DNA of 64,000 bases, taken from NCBI RefSeq assembly GCF_023238205.1, contig NZ_CP096663.1:1-64000 (forward strand), given 5' to 3'. Below the pieces are notes generated by a model. That model had not been told where the DNA came from. It was given only the letters and a program-made list of their open reading frames with translations, and made no database searches. Position 1 is the first letter of the stretch. Each line of letters opens with the position of its first letter. Shown piece after piece: positions 37,623 through 48,924 of the stretch. The position numbers and the translations under genes are program-made. This stretch comes from Halorussus limi (GTDB lineage Archaea; Halobacteriota; Halobacteria; Halobacteriales; Haladaptataceae).

Positions 37623-38338
<716 letters not shown>

Positions 38339-39376
38339 CCCGTAAAGTCGAGATCAACCTTCGATTCGATAGCTCGACGTTCGTGCAGATCGACCTCGTA
38401 GTATCCCTCTGTCCGCGTGATACAGTCGAGGAAGAACGTTTGTTTGAGTACGCGTTCGACTTCTCTCTCGAATCCACGGGTCGTCTCAAGCGAGTGCTCG
38501 AACCCCGTCTCAGTAACGATACACGGGCTATCACCTTCAACCACTTTGGCTCCGAGGTAGTACGCGAGTGGAGCAGCGACATAGATAGCCTGATGCGTCG
38601 CTGGAATCTCAATTCGAATTCCGGTGTCGGGAACTTCCAGGCCCGCAGGGATATCGAGAGACTCACCGAGTTCGATAGTCGGCGGATGGCCGCGAAGTGA
38701 CGGGTACGACCGTTCGCAACTCGTTGTCTTTAGGGCAGACCCGAACGTGGAGATGGCCGCCATCATGTCTTCCGGGTCGGACGTCGTGGTGACGGTCGCC
38801 GCGGGCTTCTCGTGATGAGATCGGGCACCCAACAGTATCTCCGTCTCCTCGGCGAACTCGAGTCGAGTACGTTCCGTATCTGATGCAACTGTGAACGGAT
38901 CGTTTACTCGGAGATAGAGTTTGATCGGTGCACCGAGTTCGATACTGTAGACTCCAGCCCCGAACTCCTCGTAGGCGAAGTGCTCTGCCTCGGCAAGCAT
39001 CTCACCCGTCTGATCACGTACGTAGACCGGGACGACCGTTGGCAGAGTGAGCGTTCCCGTGGTAATGGAGATGCCCTTGTCCGCAGGAAAGAGAAAGTTG
39101 TCTGCACCGACTGGTGTCGGAGTGACTGGGCAAGAGGTTTGAACCGAGTACCGCTGTCGTTCGATCGAGTCGATGATAGTGATACCGGTACCGTCCGAAT
39201 CGGCATCAAAGGAGAGTGTACCAACCGAATCCTCGCTGGTTGACTCGACTCGTTCGCTACCCAGACTGTTCATTACAGTAGGCGTCTCTCAGAGTAGTAG
39301 CAAAAAACTATCGGGTTCTTAAACAAAAGCCTCCAAACATAAACGAACGACAAGTGCGGGGATTGCAGTTGTCTTC

Positions 39377-41460: not shown

Positions 41461-42258
41461 ATGGCTCGATACAAGGCACTGACGGCTATTTTTCTCGTGG
41501 TAGTAATCTCTGGGACAGCTACGCCACAGATGGGCCAGTCACAAGCCACGCCGGAACTGTACTCGTCGTGTAAGCGTCCGACAGCAGACGGTACGGCCGT
41601 ACAGAATGATACACCAACGACGCCAGCGGACATCACCGTACGTGTGCTTCCCGACGAGCGGCAGATCGACGCAGACACCGAGCAGACATTGACGATTTGC
41701 GTCGTAAACCACTCGAACCAGACGATGTCGGGTCTCCTTGGCGTCTGGCATGCTGGCGATTCACCCACGATGCTGTATCTACTCGGCCCAGACGACTGTA
41801 TCAAGAACGATAATTCGATTGGGGTCCGGCCAATCGGGCGCAGTGAGACTGAGGAGTGTGACGGCAGGTCGAAACGGGAGAAAGGAGTTGACGGGATTGA
41901 AGACGGCAACGTCATCTACAGCTATGACAATGGATTGCAACCGACTGACGTCGCCCAGTATACTGTGATCATGAACATCTCGAAGACGGGGACCTATCTT
42001 GTTCGCGCTAAGTATGGTCCCTCAGACGTTTCCGGAATCAAGCCCATGGATAGGGACGTCTCGCGAGTAACCGTCTACTGCTCCCCCGGATGCCTCTTCG
42101 ACCGCCACCGCAACCTAATACTCACCGGGAGCGGTCTTCTCATCGGACTGATCGGCATTATTCCGTCCTCCAATCGTGCCCGCACTAGCTTACACCACGG
42201 TATCGTCCACGTCCACAACAGGCTCTGCAACACGCTCTGTGGCGACACCAATGAGTAA
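41461..42258 (+). CDS. Exported, membrane-anchored Ig-like protein
   Basis: A 265-residue protein. Residues 1-30 are a Sec-type signal (KALTAIFLVVVISGTATPQM). The external part is beta-rich, with DITVRVLPDERQIDADTEQT, LTICVVNHSNQTMSGLLGVW and VIMNISKTGTYLVRAKYGP, an Ig/CARDB-like fold. It has several N-x-S/T sites. Helix LILTGSGLLIGLIGIIP (about 222-238) anchors it, with a basic tail inside. It is upstream of the second DUF7504/CHAT pair, but separated by 300 bp and its own promoter. Confidence 0.7.
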   Translation: MARYKALTAIFLVVVISGTATPQMGQSQATPELYSSCKRPTADGTAVQNDTPTTPADITVRVLPDERQIDADTEQTLTICVVNHSNQTMSGLLGVWHAGDSPTMLYLLGPDDCIKNDNSIGVRPIGRSETEECDGRSKREKGVDGIEDGNVIYSYDNGLQPTDVAQYTVIMNISKTGTYLVRAKYGPSDVSGIKPMDRDVSRVTVYCSPGCLFDRHRNLILTGSGLLIGLIGIIPSSNRARTSLHHGIVHVHNRLCNTLCGDTNE

Positions 42259-42558
42259 CCAACCCGGTACAGACTTTCGGTAGTCGAGTTATCGTACGTC
42301 CACCACGCGACTTCGAGAGCGAGAACAGCAACTCTCATACCAAGACGGAATCGGTCGTAGATACCCGAATTGGGGAAAGGCGCCCATAGAATCTCGCCAC
42401 TTGAGTGGGGTTGGAATGTATCAAACACATCGAAGAGGGGGAGTGGTGCCACGATGAACCAGTAAACTGTTCTCAACGCACCCGAGTTGGAGAGTACTTC
42501 GAGCGTATTCGACAAATAGAATATATAAGATTAAGTTATAGAGTTTGGATTCCGTAGT
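42259..42558. other. Intergenic stretch before DUF7504-like copy 2
   Basis: A minus-strand frame (TTG start at 42515 to 42075) has hydrophobic segments (RTVYWFIVAPLPLFDVFD, RVAVLALEVAWWTYD) but no ATG and overlaps the exported-protein gene, so I leave it unassigned. An ATATATAAG at 42524-42532 is 27-35 nt before ATG 42559, the expected TATA of a leaderless DUF7504/CHAT operon. Confidence 0.4.
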
Positions 42559-43233
42559 ATGAAACTAACCCGTGGTAGCTGCCGGTTGTTTCGTGGGGGT
42601 GGTGAGGAAACTGCGCGAGTGTTTGCACAGCGTCTTGAGGAATTGAAGCAGACAGGGTGCAGTATTCTTGTCACGGGGACAGTGGACTCAGCGGGGTTTG
42701 CCGAACAGTTGTCGCTGTCGCTCGGAAATCAGACGTGCAAGCAGGTGTTGGTGTCGCCGTATCAGCTGTCAACTCCCGGCCAACTGCTGCCTGCAGGTAT
42801 CTCGCCAGCTATGGACTCGGTTCGCGTGGTAACCGGCGAGCAAGCGCGGAGTACTGCATCGGCAGGACGTGCTGGTAGTGCGGACGACCTCGCGACGCTA
42901 CGGGAGGCTGTTCTCGACGCGATCACCGACTTAAGTGACGAGTTCGAGTTAGCGGATAACGATCTTCGTGTTGGGGTGCAATCGCTCGGCCAGTTTAGTG
43001 ACTGGGCGGATGGGCGTGGTGTGCGGCGGTTTGTGCAGGCGGTCTCGAAGTACGTCGGGCTTGTGAATGGGACGTTGTACTGTCAGCTCCGAGGTGACAG
43101 CACGCGCGCCAGTGAACTGCTTGATGTCGGACTGTTCGATGCACATATCGAGTTGCGGTCACAGCAAGAGTGTGTCGAGCAACGGTGGCACCTTCCCGAT
43201 GAGGAGATTACGACGAAGTGGGTGTCGTTGTAG
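42559..43233 (+). CDS. DUF7504-like protein (copy 2)
   Basis: A 224-residue homologue of the 39377 protein. Shared parts are the N-terminal RLEELKQTGCSILVTGTVDS, a middle LSDEFELADNDLRVGVQSLG, YVGLVNGTLYCQLRGDST and the end LLDVGLFDAHIELRSQQE, RWHLPDEEITTKWVSL. The first ten residues (MKLTRGSCRLF) are basic and unusual. No Walker A lysine is seen, so it is probably not an ATPase. It is 2 nt upstream of the CHAT gene and probably translated together with it. The codons prefer G/T ends, unlike the main set of genes here. Confidence 0.75.
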   Translation: MKLTRGSCRLFRGGGEETARVFAQRLEELKQTGCSILVTGTVDSAGFAEQLSLSLGNQTCKQVLVSPYQLSTPGQLLPAGISPAMDSVRVVTGEQARSTASAGRAGSADDLATLREAVLDAITDLSDEFELADNDLRVGVQSLGQFSDWADGRGVRRFVQAVSKYVGLVNGTLYCQLRGDSTRASELLDVGLFDAHIELRSQQECVEQRWHLPDEEITTKWVSL

Positions 43234-43235
43234 GT

Positions 43236-45308
43236 ATGGCGCCGACGGTGACGGCGTTGGACGACAGGCCGGGCGTTCGAGTTGTCGATCCGATTGAGAG
43301 CGCACAGTTTGATCTGTGGACGGCGTCGCCAGTGAAGCCGGTGTCAGTCTCGCCGGACGTGTTCCGGTTTCCGGTTGGGAATGCAGTCGAGATATCGACG
43401 AGTCGGGTGGTGGTGCCGGAGTTGACGAGTATCTACCTACATGGCGAGGATGGGTTGGCGGAGACGTTTGACCCGTCGGATGGACGGCTTCGGGTTGAGG
43501 GAGCGCGGACACTCGAAATCAATAGTGCGCCGACGAAGCTCTATCTGCGGGTTGGGTGTCCGCTGGTAGTTACGCGAGAGGATTCACGGGTGGTGGTTCG
43601 GTTTGACGGGGTGGTTGCTGTACAGGTTGGGGTGCGGTCGTTGCATGACCAGCCAGCGGGAACGATTACGACGCCAGAGCGTCCGGAGGCTATGATGCGG
43701 GCGGTGTCGTTGTTGGGGTCGGCGTTGAAGACGACATCGCCGGAGCGGTCGTTTCCGACGTTGCGTGGGCACCCGCCATTGATCGAGACGGGGGACGTGT
43801 TTGCAGTGCCGGACGGCATCGAGCGGCCAGAAACGGGGGTTCGGGTGGAGATGCCTCCCGAGTATGAGTACGTGTATCCGGCGGTATCGCTGGCGTACTA
43901 TCTCGGCGCGGAGGTCGTGCCGGGCACCCACCCACAACTGGTGACAGAGAATGGGTTCACGTATGATTTAGCGGGAGATATCGGGTATGAGCGGCGGGTT
44001 GGGCGTGTCCTCCGACAGGTGTTCGTATTGGATTGTGTGGTGCGGACGGAAGGCTACTACCAGATTGCGCTGCATGAACGCCACCGACTGGAGGAGCGAC
44101 TGGACGTGGATGTTGGCTGGCTCTACGAACTGCCGCTGGCAGCGCGGCTTGAACAGTATCTCGACGTGCCGTATGACGCGGTCGCGGATGTGATTCCGGC
44201 GTGGCCGTTAACCGTCGATGTCGATCCGTCTATATCGAGTCTCGACGCGATGCCGTTTCTCGCTAACGAGTTAGCCGTTGTCCGGACGACTCCTGACCAG
44301 TCGGGATCAGCGACGCCGACACCGGACGTGATTACGGACTTCCAACGCACCGACTCCAACGCTGGTTCGGGGTCAGGGTCAGAGGGTGTGTCGAGTAGGT
44401 TTGTGACGCCGGAGCCGGTGTCGTTCGACTCGGTTGGTCGGGCATGGGTCGGAGATGGGGTACCGGTTGGCGTGAACAAACTCACGTCTGGGTCACTCCA
44501 CCGCAGTCTCGACGTTGACCCAGACCCGTCACCAATCCAGATTCACGTCGTCTGCAACGATTCCGCGATGCAGGCCGAACGCGCTGTCTCAGAGTACTAC
44601 CAATTGAACGAACGACACCAGTTCGATATCACCGTCCACACCGATGTTGAAACGGGGGAGTTACGGGCATTGCTCGAACAGGATGCGGACTTCCTCCACT
44701 ACATCGGCCACGTCACCGACAACGGTATTGTTTGTCCAGACGACCACCTTGACACAGAGGTGCTTTCGAGTGTCTCGGTGAAAGCGTTCCTCTTGAACGC
44801 GTGCGACTCCTACGAGCAAGGCCTCCAGCTCGTCGAGGCCGGAAGCCTCGGCGGAATCATCACGCTCTCCGACGTTGCCGACACCGTCGCCACACGCGCC
44901 GGCACCCAACTCGCCCGCCTCCTCGCCGCAGGCCACACCCTCCACACCAGCACTACCGTCCTCCAAACCCACCTCCTCTCCGGCACCAACTGGCTCACCA
45001 TCGGCAACGCCACACTCTCACTCTGCAACTCACAAAGCGGGGTTCCACTTTATCTCCGTATCTTGGAAGTTGAAGATGGCATATTCAAATCGGAGGTTTC
45101 TACGTTCGTATCACCGAGCCATGGACTTGGTTCTGCTATAAAATTACGTATCGACTCAAAGACTCGCTATTTAGTAAGCGGCAAACTTGACACGTTCGAC
45201 CTCTCTAAGTCAGAACTCGACAAAATACTGGAAGGGGACATCATACCTGTTGATTACGACGAAGAGCGGTACTGGAGCGACGAAATTTCAGCGTCTGATT
45301 TGATTTAG
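43236..45308 (+). CDS. CHAT-domain caspase-like protease (copy 2)
   Basis: A 690-residue protein starting MAPTVTALDDRPGVRVVDPI. The N-terminal module (about 10-310) has GSALKTTSPERSFPTLRGHP, VSLAYYLGAEVVPGTHPQLV and VVRTEGYYQIALHERHRLEE. A Ser/Thr-rich linker (about 345-395) leads to the CHAT domain (about 430-610): DFLHYIGHVTDNGIV with the catalytic His and VKAFLLNACDSYEQGLQLV with the catalytic Cys, then ADTVATRAGTQLARLLAAGH. A roughly 85-residue beta tail follows. CHAT proteases are clan CD cysteine peptidases that act in signalling, cell death or defence. The substrate is unknown. Codon use changes near 44.7 kb. Confidence 0.82.
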   Translation: MAPTVTALDDRPGVRVVDPIESAQFDLWTASPVKPVSVSPDVFRFPVGNAVEISTSRVVVPELTSIYLHGEDGLAETFDPSDGRLRVEGARTLEINSAPTKLYLRVGCPLVVTREDSRVVVRFDGVVAVQVGVRSLHDQPAGTITTPERPEAMMRAVSLLGSALKTTSPERSFPTLRGHPPLIETGDVFAVPDGIERPETGVRVEMPPEYEYVYPAVSLAYYLGAEVVPGTHPQLVTENGFTYDLAGDIGYERRVGRVLRQVFVLDCVVRTEGYYQIALHERHRLEERLDVDVGWLYELPLAARLEQYLDVPYDAVADVIPAWPLTVDVDPSISSLDAMPFLANELAVVRTTPDQSGSATPTPDVITDFQRTDSNAGSGSGSEGVSSRFVTPEPVSFDSVGRAWVGDGVPVGVNKLTSGSLHRSLDVDPDPSPIQIHVVCNDSAMQAERAVSEYYQLNERHQFDITVHTDVETGELRALLEQDADFLHYIGHVTDNGIVCPDDHLDTEVLSSVSVKAFLLNACDSYEQGLQLVEAGSLGGIITLSDVADTVATRAGTQLARLLAAGHTLHTSTTVLQTHLLSGTNWLTIGNATLSLCNSQSGVPLYLRILEVEDGIFKSEVSTFVSPSHGLGSAIKLRIDSKTRYLVSGKLDTFDLSKSELDKILEGDIIPVDYDEERYWSDEISASDLI

Positions 45309-45543
45309 GGGCCGGGGTGCGTATCCGCTAGTGGGCTGATATCGGTGGTTAGCAGGAATTGCGCTATCAGAAGGAACGCTGTGAATATGGTACTCATTAC
45401 TTTTGGGTGGTTCCGTCCGAGTGTGGCTAGTTTCGATTGCATTGCACACGGAGTATACTCACCTACTGTAATACTATTAATGCATGAAATATGGAATTTG
45501 ACAGCAGTTAGTGAAAACCCTCACCGAATTCCCCCGAATCTAT
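45309..45543. other. AT-richer gap after the CHAT gene
   Basis: No gene is seen in 235 bp. The sequence is AT-richer than the surroundings (TACTGTAATACTATTAATGC, ATGAAATATGGAATTTG) and looks like an abandoned promoter or a junction. The convergent wHTH gene ends at 45544. Confidence 0.4.
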
Positions 45544-45888
45544 TTATGATTCTGCGATGCCGTAGAAGTCCTCGATGGCGGTTTCGGTGTCGTTTTCGAG
45601 GGCGTTGAGTCGATCGTGATGGAGGTCTCGCCATTCTTGACCGACCCGAGCAAGCCCCGAGTCAGCTAGCTGGTAGCCGTCGATGCGGCCGAGGGACACG
45701 CGGTCGAGGATGCCGAGATCAACGAGGAAGTCTTTGTGTTGATGGACGGTTGACTCGTCGAGGTCGGACTCAGTGGCGAGTTCGCGGACGTTGAAAGCTT
45801 GGTCGGGATGGGCTAGCGCCGTCTCGACGATTCTAAGTCGTGCTGGATGGCCGTAGGTCTTCGTTAGCGGGCCAGCGTCACCAGTCAT
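45544..45888 (-). CDS. Winged-helix regulator
   Basis: A 114-residue ArsR/TrmB-like wHTH protein. TYGHPARLRIVETALAHPDQ starts the domain, AFNVRELATESDLDESTVHQ is the HTH and HKDFLVDLGILDRVSLGRID the following helix and wing, with YQLADSGLARVGQEWRDLHH as the last helix. The gene and its upstream region (45759-45931) recur as a truncated copy at 48014-48186. The palindrome at 46026 may belong to its control. Confidence 0.75.
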   Translation of the reverse strand: MTGDAGPLTKTYGHPARLRIVETALAHPDQAFNVRELATESDLDESTVHQHKDFLVDLGILDRVSLGRIDGYQLADSGLARVGQEWRDLHHDRLNALENDTETAIEDFYGIAES

Positions 45889-45931
45889 ATCCGTTTCTGG
45901 TCACTCACCGCGACTAACCCTTGGGTTCTCC
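45759..45931. repeat. 173-bp duplicated segment, copy 1
   Basis: This segment covers the first 43 codons of the wHTH gene and its upstream region. It recurs at 48014-48186 at about 93% by eye, in the same orientation, with equal length. The boundaries are sharp: AGGTCGG starts and GGGTTCTCC ends both copies. Confidence 0.85.
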
Positions 45932-46243
45932 TACCGAGGGGCGAAGAGACTGCTGGAGTTGGAGATAGCGTCGGTAGTGGCCACCTCGGGGACGAGTACA
46001 GGCGAGAGCCTTAGCGATAAGTACTAACCTGTTCTGTTTATCGAGACAGGTTCTCGCCTATGATTTCTCTGTTACGTACTCTGCATTGGGTGTGTCACCG
46101 GCGAGTACCCATACGACATCGAGGGCGAGGAGACCGACCGCGACGTGACCCGGCCCCAAGTCGGCGAACCCGCGAGCGCCGGACTCGGGGACTGAAGCAA
46201 CCGCTGGATCCATGGTCGAAGAGCGGTGGGGCCGCAGTTCGCG
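45932..46243. other. Stretch with a palindrome and a coding-like fragment
   Basis: About 310 bp between the wHTH promoter and the YqcI-like gene. AACCTGT (46026-46032) and ACAGGTT (46046-46052) form an inverted pair around TTTATCGAG. A plus-strand piece ending at about 46193 reads GCVTGEYPYDIEGEETDRDV and QVGEPASAGLGD with typical acidic codons, but has no start. It may be the end of a lost gene. Confidence 0.4.
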
Positions 46244-46984
46244 TCAGGCGGTCCAGTCGGAGACGGGAAATTCGTCAAACCGCTCGTCGTTCGAGTCCGG
46301 AAGCACGTACTGCTCCCACTCGTGGACGTCCGGGTCGCCGTAGTCGCCGATGTCCGGGTGTCGAGGAACGTCGTCGTAGTCGGCGAGTTGCTCGCGGATG
46401 ATTCGGCGGGCGCGTTGACCCGCCTCGGTGTCACCCCCGAGTCCGTCGAACACCCACCTCGGCTGCACCGTGAGTTCGAGACCGTGGGGCGTGTACCTGC
46501 TGTGACGCCGCTCGTAGGCCGGCGTGCGGGCCACCACGAACATCGGTTCGCCAGCGTAACAGAACTCCCATCTGGTGTCGGTGGGGTCGCTCGGTACGTC
46601 CTCGGGCCACGGCTCCGGGTCGTGACGGTGGAGGTACGCGAGAAGCTCCCAAACCTCGTCTCGGTACTCCGCGACCGAGTGCTCTTCCTCCTGCGGTTCG
46701 AAAAAGATGGCCAGCGCGGTGACGTCGGCGATGTCCGGCGCTTCGTCGAGGTAGTCTGCGAGTCCGTCGGCAACCGTTTCCTTCCCGGCCTCCGTGGTCG
46801 CGGCGGGCGCGAACAGGTACCGGAGGTCGCCTTCTTGGTGGGCGTCGACCGCGAAGTAGCAGGGATACGGCATCTCCTCGTCGGTCATCGTCTCGTGAAA
46901 CGCGCGGTAGCGTCGGGTCTTCCACTCCGCGAGTCCGTCGTCGATGGCGGACTCGATCTGAGATTTCGTCTGGAGACTGCTCAC
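46244..46984 (-). CDS. YqcI/YcgG-family protein (heme N-hydroxylase-like)
   Basis: A 246-residue protein with YPCYFAVDAHQEGDLRYLFA (about 40-59), WEFCYAGEPMFVVARTPAYE, RRHSRYTPHGLELTVQPRWV and DYGDPDVHEWEQYVLPDSND, motifs of the YqcI/YcgG family. Known members include GntA-type, heme-dependent enzymes that hydroxylate a guanidine nitrogen, with Cys and His near these motifs. The start is GTG 46984. It is 67 nt downstream of the DUF1989 gene on the same strand. These two families are often paired, so a common pathway is likely; the substrate here is unknown. Confidence 0.8.
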   Translation of the reverse strand: MSSLQTKSQIESAIDDGLAEWKTRRYRAFHETMTDEEMPYPCYFAVDAHQEGDLRYLFAPAATTEAGKETVADGLADYLDEAPDIADVTALAIFFEPQEEEHSVAEYRDEVWELLAYLHRHDPEPWPEDVPSDPTDTRWEFCYAGEPMFVVARTPAYERRHSRYTPHGLELTVQPRWVFDGLGGDTEAGQRARRIIREQLADYDDVPRHPDIGDYGDPDVHEWEQYVLPDSNDERFDEFPVSDWTA

Positions 46985-47845: not shown

Positions 47846-48013
47846 ATGGTTTCACTGACGGCATTGGACGGGACTATAGAAACGGATGCTCTCTTGTCTC
47901 AAGCAGACTGTTCCCTTCTTGAGGCGAGCGACCCGAAATGGAAGCTGTGGATTCGCTTCCAGCTGCGGAGAATACGCTTGCCCGCGTCCAGAGTGCGGGA
48001 GCATCCAAGACAG
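47846..48013 (+). pseudogene. Possible transposase N-terminal fragment
   Basis: The frame begins MVSLTALDGTIETDALLSQA, DCSLLEASDPKWKLWIRF. In another frame it reads EYACPRPECGSIQDS, a zinc-ribbon-like piece with CPRPEC. The frame change and the abrupt end at 48013, where the duplicated wHTH segment begins, suggest a cut and shifted gene. IS1595-like N-termini have such ribbons, but the match is weak. Confidence 0.35.
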
Positions 48014-48186
48014 CGAGGTCGGACTCAGTGGCGAGTTCACGGACGTTGAAAGCCTGGTCGGGATGGGCGAGCGCCGTCTCGACGATTCTAAGTCGTGCTG
48101 GATGACCGTAGGTCTTCGTGAGCGGTCCAGCGTCGCCAGTCAGGTCCGTTTCTGGCCACTCACCACGACTAACCCTTGGGTTCTCC
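48014..48186. repeat. 173-bp duplicated segment, copy 2 (truncated wHTH gene)
   Basis: This carries a minus-strand start MTGDAGPLTKTYGHPARLRI...ATESDL and its upstream region, as at 45759-45931. After ESDL the frame runs into unrelated sequence, so it is a broken copy. Copies are in the same orientation, 2255 bp apart, and enclose the YqcI/DUF1989 pair. Confidence 0.85.
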
Positions 48187-48924
48187 CACTGACGGTCGAC
48201 CGCCGGAGGCGGGGACAGCGTCGTTGATAGCGTCACTAGTGGTCGCTACTTTTTAGCCGACATCTGAGAGGACCTCGTCGGCGAGCGTGGCGAACGGCGA
48301 ACCTGATGAACACCGAGGCACCCTCGTCAATCTCGGCTCTATGGCCTGCATGCTACTCCAGAGCTGAATCAGGTCAATATCCGCTTCCCAGAGGGATTGA
48401 CAACTGTGTTTTCCACTAATGGGGGATGCCACAATGGTTTGGCGGTTGGATAGCGACGTGAAGTACCGTGCTCACGATTAACGAACGGCCGGCGATGAAC
48501 TCCTGGCAAGAAACGTTCAGGGTTTTCTGAACAGCCCCGGCCAGGGTCGAGGTTGGTTGGTAGAAGACATGGTCGATATCGAACGACCGTAATTGCGGCA
48601 CTGAACAGAGCAACAATTCGGGGGAATGTCGATTGTCTCCTGCAACAAGTGGGCTTAGATTAGTGGAGTAGTCAAGAACGACGAGCAATCTCGACAGCGT
48701 TTATAAGTAGTATGATAATGTGATTCCGGTGCGGGGTTAATCGAGAAATAACCGGTACAAGATTGGATTCTCTGTCAATTCCGCTGGTAGGTGTCTCGAA
48801 AACGTTGATTTCCAACTGACTCCGGTTCCACCACGTTTAATTGAAATCTATTAGACAGTACTGCGAAACGTCCTTTAGTGTTACAGGCTTGAATCTCAAT
48901 CGTCGGCAAGTTGTCCACGTTTCA
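48187..48924. other. Gene-free stretch
   Basis: No supported gene over about 740 bp. A minus-strand frame (48416-48688) has no acidic character and no motif. AT-rich words occur at 48700-48730 (TTTATAAGTAGTATGATAATG) and 48836-48850. The stretch probably consists of worn remains between insertions. Confidence 0.4.

Follow-up and report, generated by a model that had tools for sequence, protein, structure and literature searches.

An interchangeable C-terminal domain on a predicted caspase-like protease of haloarchaea

A caspase-like (CHAT-like) protease, predicted from its fold and encoded in most of the haloarchaeal genomes examined, keeps its putative catalytic part nearly unchanged between related species, whereas its last 90 or so amino acids are exchanged by recombination as a cassette, which suggests a protease with an interchangeable recognition end. 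The gene was studied in a window of 64,000 nucleotides (positions 1 to 64,000 of contig NZ_CP096663.1, Halorussus limi, assembly GCF_023238205.1), which is the start of a 150,469-base replicon where reading of the frames suggests ParA-like and Orc1/Cdc6-like replication genes and a phosphate-uptake cluster. Handles beginning with G denote genomes and those beginning with L members of the family; all coordinates refer to the window.

The gene occupies 43236-45308 (+), an intact frame of 691 codons encoding 690 amino acids. The family was found in 129 of 146 related genomes and is colinear over its full length; in addition, 535 candidate stretches of a collection of named records encode a relative, of which 80 were kept. 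The AlphaFold2 model had a pLDDT of 91. An N-terminal module conserved in the family (43236-44198, +; residues 1-321) is followed by a caspase-clan region (44199-45029, +; residues 322-598), which aligned best to SAVED-CHAT (8tl0_B; Z 18.6, rmsd 2.4 Å, 169 aligned residues), gingipain (Z 16.3), separase (Z about 15), Craspase and caspases. His492 (CAC, 44709-44711, +) and Cys523 (TGC, 44802-44804, +) are invariant in 188 of 188 homologues, their catalytic role being inferred from the fold. The protein had no Pfam hit at E up to 1, and a search of the genome with the Pfam CHAT profile (PF12770) gave only signals below the curated cut-off, at 44571-44990 of this gene (E 0.17) and at four paralogues of the same genome (best E 8.1e-5), hence the designation CHAT-like. 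The C-terminal domain (45030-45305, +; residues 599-690; GC3 0.45), modelled alone, folded confidently (pLDDT 88) into a small beta-rich domain, with Pro671 and Trp680 invariant in 30 of 30 aligned tails (5 of 35 chosen tails were left out of this alignment). No PDB match to the tail was obtained with E <= 0.001, and the best structural alignment of the tail-alone model reached only Z 4.6, to an unrelated protein, which does not show that the fold is new. L208 (1 of 80) was left out of the structure alignment because its frame has stops, and a sequence search of solved structures with the family profile returned one chance hit at E 1.1.

The preliminary description of this gene reported that its first two thirds prefer G- and T-ending codons, that the CHAT core at about 44750-45020 is full of C-ending codons, and that the last 270 bp are AT-richer again. 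This compositional pattern was confirmed. Third-position (G-C)/(G+C) skew is +0.5 to +0.9 at 43236-43900, mostly 0 to +0.5 up to about 44480, -0.2 to -0.5 at 44480-44800 and -0.7 to -0.93 at 44800-45030, after which GC3 falls from 0.83-0.86 to 0.38-0.55. Segmentation on synonymous codon choice, given the protein, placed breaks at 44208, 44802 and 45030, each exceeding the maximum obtained by permuting synonymous codons within its own segment (30.9 against at most 6.1 in 60 permutations; 10.3 against 5.9 and 7.6 against 7.1 in 30 permutations each), so that the tail break is the weakest of the three when this single gene is considered. Two corrections apply: the shift to C-ending codons starts at about 44480 (44481-45029) rather than 44750, and the G/T-rich block begins inside the upstream DUF7504 gene (42559-43233, +; skew +0.36).

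The same description interpreted these breaks as evidence that both the protease domain and the tail had been exchanged by recombination on a fixed N-terminal module, as in polymorphic effectors; this reading is only partly supported, since tail exchange is strongly supported and exchange of the protease domain is not supported for this gene. The two composition changes have different causes. Among 188 homologues, an N-part skew of +0.53 to +0.60 combined with a core skew of -0.82 to -0.90 occurs only in the window gene and three close orthologues, in G004, G008 and G014, the four being Halorussus plasmid orthologues (family means -0.08, sd 0.14, and -0.17, sd 0.22, respectively). By contrast, the low tail GC3 is family-wide (0.592 against 0.799 in the body, lower in the tail in 168 of 188), and over 144 homologues tail GC3 correlates with body GC3 at 0.42, whereas core GC3 does so at 0.88. 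The strong third-position flip from G/T to C/A is not a trace of exchange, while the AT-rich step at 45030 is.

The AT-rich tail is an exchanged cassette. Against the orthologue in G004 (the record of Halorussus aquaticus plasmid NZ_CP100402.1), DNA identity is 98% in the two 60-nt blocks at 44887-45006, falls to 66, 68, 65 and 58% in the four blocks at 45007-45246 (+), and returns to 86, 83, 88, 96 and 80% in the five blocks at 45247-45541, whereas against G014 the tail remains at 90-98%. Of 188 distinct full-length proteins (L049 and L050 being excluded), 76 pairs have bodies 84-99.5% identical, of which 38 are independent; this set replaced an initial one of 30 pairs that included a frameshift artefact (L049/L050). 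Mean identity over the 38 pairs was 0.905 for the body, 0.935 for the core (residues 501-590) and 0.627 for the tail (residues 600-682), the tail lying below the core in all 38 (Wilcoxon statistic 0) and more than 0.15 below the body in 30. Synonymous divergence (pS) was 0.260 in the body, 0.320 in the core and 0.647 in the tail, with seven control windows of the same length at 0.237-0.327, and the corresponding pN values were 0.049, 0.035 and 0.233. Tail pS exceeded body pS in 36 of 38 pairs (Wilcoxon p 1e-10), so synonymous sites jump too, which positive selection on point mutations alone would not produce. Tail pS was bimodal, with four pairs close to the body (less than 1.3 times body pS) and most near saturation, and was uncorrelated with body pS (Spearman 0.14, p 0.39), whereas core pS was correlated (0.58, p 0.0002), as discrete replacement predicts and gradual evolution does not.

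A two-breakpoint fit placed the 5' break at residues 592-608 (45010-45059, +, in the window gene, with the GC3 step at 45030) in 25 of 38 pairs. In 18 of 38 the sequence after the second break was at least 0.78 identical over 120 nt or more, for example 0.94 in the body, 0.49 in the cassette and 0.98 downstream for L132/L225, while in the other 20 the downstream DNA was different, too divergent or too short to be decisive. For the window gene and the G004 orthologue (L001/L045) the fit put the second break far downstream, although the 60-nt blocks show the return to similarity at 45247. In a few other lineages the break lies inside the core (L123/L149 at 471, L143/L129 at 513, L135/L144 at 545), as expected if crossovers use any stretch of conserved core. 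Since breakpoints were placed by a drop in identity, with a resolution of several codons, strong constraint on the core could hide earlier crossovers.

In three genomes of one genus (G077, G091 and G105) two loci, A and B, are present. G077 and G105 carry A-tails on A-bodies and B-tails on B-bodies, whereas G091 shows a reciprocal swap: its A-body (0.88-0.90 to A, 0.79-0.81 to B) carries a B-tail (0.95 to B, 0.39-0.40 to A), and its B-body (residues 300-430 at 98-100% to B, 64-66% to A) carries an A-tail (74-80% to A, 40-43% to B), the latter gene being frameshifted. In G002, two full genes are each followed on the same strand by an orphan core-plus-tail frame lacking the N-terminal module (306 and 261 amino acids); core DNA of parent and orphan is 89% identical over 622 nt and 95% over 413 nt, with different tails, and in the second case the match stops at the GDGGL codons. 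Recombination between these direct repeats would load the orphan tail onto the full gene, although that this happens is inferred. Moreover, seven Haloarcula-group bodies 0.91-0.96 alike carry tails 0.39-0.80 alike, and 93 of 188 proteins have different best body and best tail partners.

The congruence of individual parts with the body tree was also assessed, using the 121 of 188 proteins with a close relative. AU tests rejected the body tree for all six windows, controls included, because each window's own tree is favoured, and a congruence index was therefore used. The index was 0.897 for the tail against 0.971-0.992 for five control windows of like length, core residues 510-592 being as congruent as the other controls (0.977). 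The tail thus remains largely congruent with the body, so exchange is mostly among relatives. For the window gene, the nearest relatives of residues 10-323, 324-430, 431-521 and 522-597 are the same three orthologues followed by the same two G002 proteins, at similar identities (0.64-0.72 for the latter), and there is no sign that the core was exchanged against the N-terminal part.

A local reservoir does not appear to be the usual donor. Orphan modules were found in only 1 of 40 genomes searched for them (28 and 12 in two rounds). Other short frames carrying tails were frameshifted, truncated or deleted genes (L248, L249, L250, L255, L257, L258, L259 and L260), a near-complete gene with one stop (L261), or a tail-like stretch in an unrelated 200-aa frame (L251). 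No silent copy of the core DNA was found in the gene's own genome, the core occurring once per genome in four of the five genomes with a match and four times in G002. Most donors are therefore probably other cells or other loci. Tail switching among the four G002 plasmid copies was considered and rejected, as L047/L050 and L048/L049 are 99.9% identical segmental duplicates of the locus carried on two plasmids, each pair with one frameshifted tail, which could be real or an assembly matter. Fifteen stretches matched a pattern for virus or phage carriers but none was confirmed, no phage record matched, no PADLOC model matched (although that library need not contain such a system), and no RNA family was detected at 42000-46500.

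Taken together, the explanation favoured here, with fairly good confidence, is that the gene encodes a caspase-clan cysteine protease, presumably cytosolic, of an old, mostly haloarchaeal family, whose C-terminal domain is replaced as a cassette by homologous recombination across the conserved core. The analysis shows that crossovers enter at the end of the core (residues ~592-608) and leave near the stop codon or just downstream, and that tails move between species and between paralogous loci of one genome and exist as orphan core-plus-tail modules downstream of a full gene. It is inferred, on the other hand, that the protein is proteolytically active and not exported, that the incoming tail keeps the same fold with a different surface, and that the protease and its catalytic dyad stay fixed while what the tail binds changes, with binding governing the protease. 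In this view, the tail is most likely a recognition or trigger module (for a virus or other non-self protein, or a partner) diversified by an arms race, and the protease is the effector.

Among the alternatives, it is possible, though less likely, that the tail varies to escape inhibitors made by viruses or plasmids, or to set self identity between strains, rather than to sense a trigger. The same data apply, variation being confined to one domain while the catalytic-type residues are invariant, but no inhibitor or partner gene is known and no co-varying neighbour was found, the upstream DUF7504 gene being uniformly similar (85-98% per 60-nt block) between the window and G004. It is unlikely that the caspase-clan domain cleaves off the tail and that the tail is itself a variable effector or toxin, as in polymorphic toxins with a peptidase before the toxin. 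The order of N-terminal module, peptidase and variable C-terminus, and the G002 orphans, resembling those described for CdiA-CT (PMC3150448), would fit this reading; however, tails of very different bodies keep the same length and motifs rather than showing unrelated toxin folds, no partner gene is exchanged with the tail in at least 18 of 38 pairs, no toxin match was found in the Pfam, PADLOC and PDB searches, and no secretion signal is apparent by eye at the N-terminus. Fast evolution of a weakly constrained or positively selected tail by point mutation alone is very unlikely: the almost gapless alignment of tails in most pairs, the partial congruence of the tail tree and the proportionally greater rise of pN than of pS would be compatible with it, but it is contradicted by the reciprocal swap, and also by the uncoupled jump in synonymous divergence, the orphan modules and the return of identity downstream in 18 of 38 pairs. 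Equally improbable is the import of the CHAT core from another lineage at the codon-skew flip, since, extreme as the flip is, the nearest relatives are the same on both sides and the sister protein L048 from G002 already has the C-rich core (-0.74) without the G-rich N-part.

Exchange of a C-terminal domain by recombination is already known for secreted bacterial toxins and for one archaeal Ig protein predicted to be secreted; what differs here is that it is seen, across a whole archaeal class, on a caspase-fold protein whose catalytic part is almost frozen. In CDI/Rhs polymorphic toxins (PMC3150448) a conserved body likewise precedes a C-terminus that varies beyond a fixed boundary, and orphan C-terminal fragments sharing body sequence upstream of the boundary sit directly downstream and could be loaded by recombination. 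In the present family, however, the exchanged piece is one predicted fold with conserved positions, no immunity gene travels with it in the testable pairs, orphans are rare, and the fixed part is a caspase-fold protein rather than a secreted delivery protein; the comparison with polymorphic effectors is thus a good analogy, but the family is not assigned to them. VARTIG of Thermococcales (PMC8416519) is an archaeal protein whose C-terminal domain is hypervariable through recombination between species, and a self/non-self role is discussed for it, but it is a large, predicted-secreted Ig-domain protein with variable downstream genes, and the survey of other archaea in that study looked for Ig/CARDB proteins and so would not have covered this family. 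SAVED-CHAT/CalpL and Craspase TPR-CHAT (PDB 8tl0, 7y85; PMC11417357) share the CHAT peptidase fold joined to other domains, with a protease as effector of a recognition event; no SAVED or TPR domain was identified here, and recognition would sit in the exchangeable C-terminal domain. In type I restriction systems, swapping of HsdS target-recognition domains by recombination across conserved segments changes specificity while the catalytic partner is fixed, though the proteins and chemistry differ.

If the tail is the recognition module, the family would be an archaeal analogue of a variable receptor joined to a protease effector, and tail swaps would give a direct way to find ligands. More tentatively, haloarchaea may possess a repertoire of intracellular, caspase-fold immune receptors, with several paralogous CHAT-like proteases per cell, each with a hypervariable sensor domain reshuffled by recombination between loci and species. 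The family could also supply candidate genes for the strong caspase-like activity measured in Haloferax volcanii extracts, for which the authors stated that archaeal genomes lack clear homologues (PMC3615174); it occurs in H. denitrificans, H. sulfurifontis and H. mucosum, while the plasmid records gave no Haloferax hit. No paper on this family was found among open-licence PMC articles on CHAT domains or peptidases in haloarchaea (including their defence, hypervariability and caspase activity) or on DUF7504.

A DUF7504-like gene lies directly upstream in 39 of 80 named loci, making it a frequent but not obligate neighbour, and DUF7504 occurs 20 times in the H. limi genome, also next to several CHAT-like genes. 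Elsewhere in the window, 38299-39273 (-) is an N-terminal-only copy of a CHAT-like paralogue (about residues 1-310), for which G004 has an intact 708-aa version at the matching place, 100% identical over 877 nt, so that the window copy has lost its CHAT part. Finally, two HTH-like frames at 45544-45888 (-) and 47874-48236 (-) share an almost identical stretch of about 40 residues, a local duplication.
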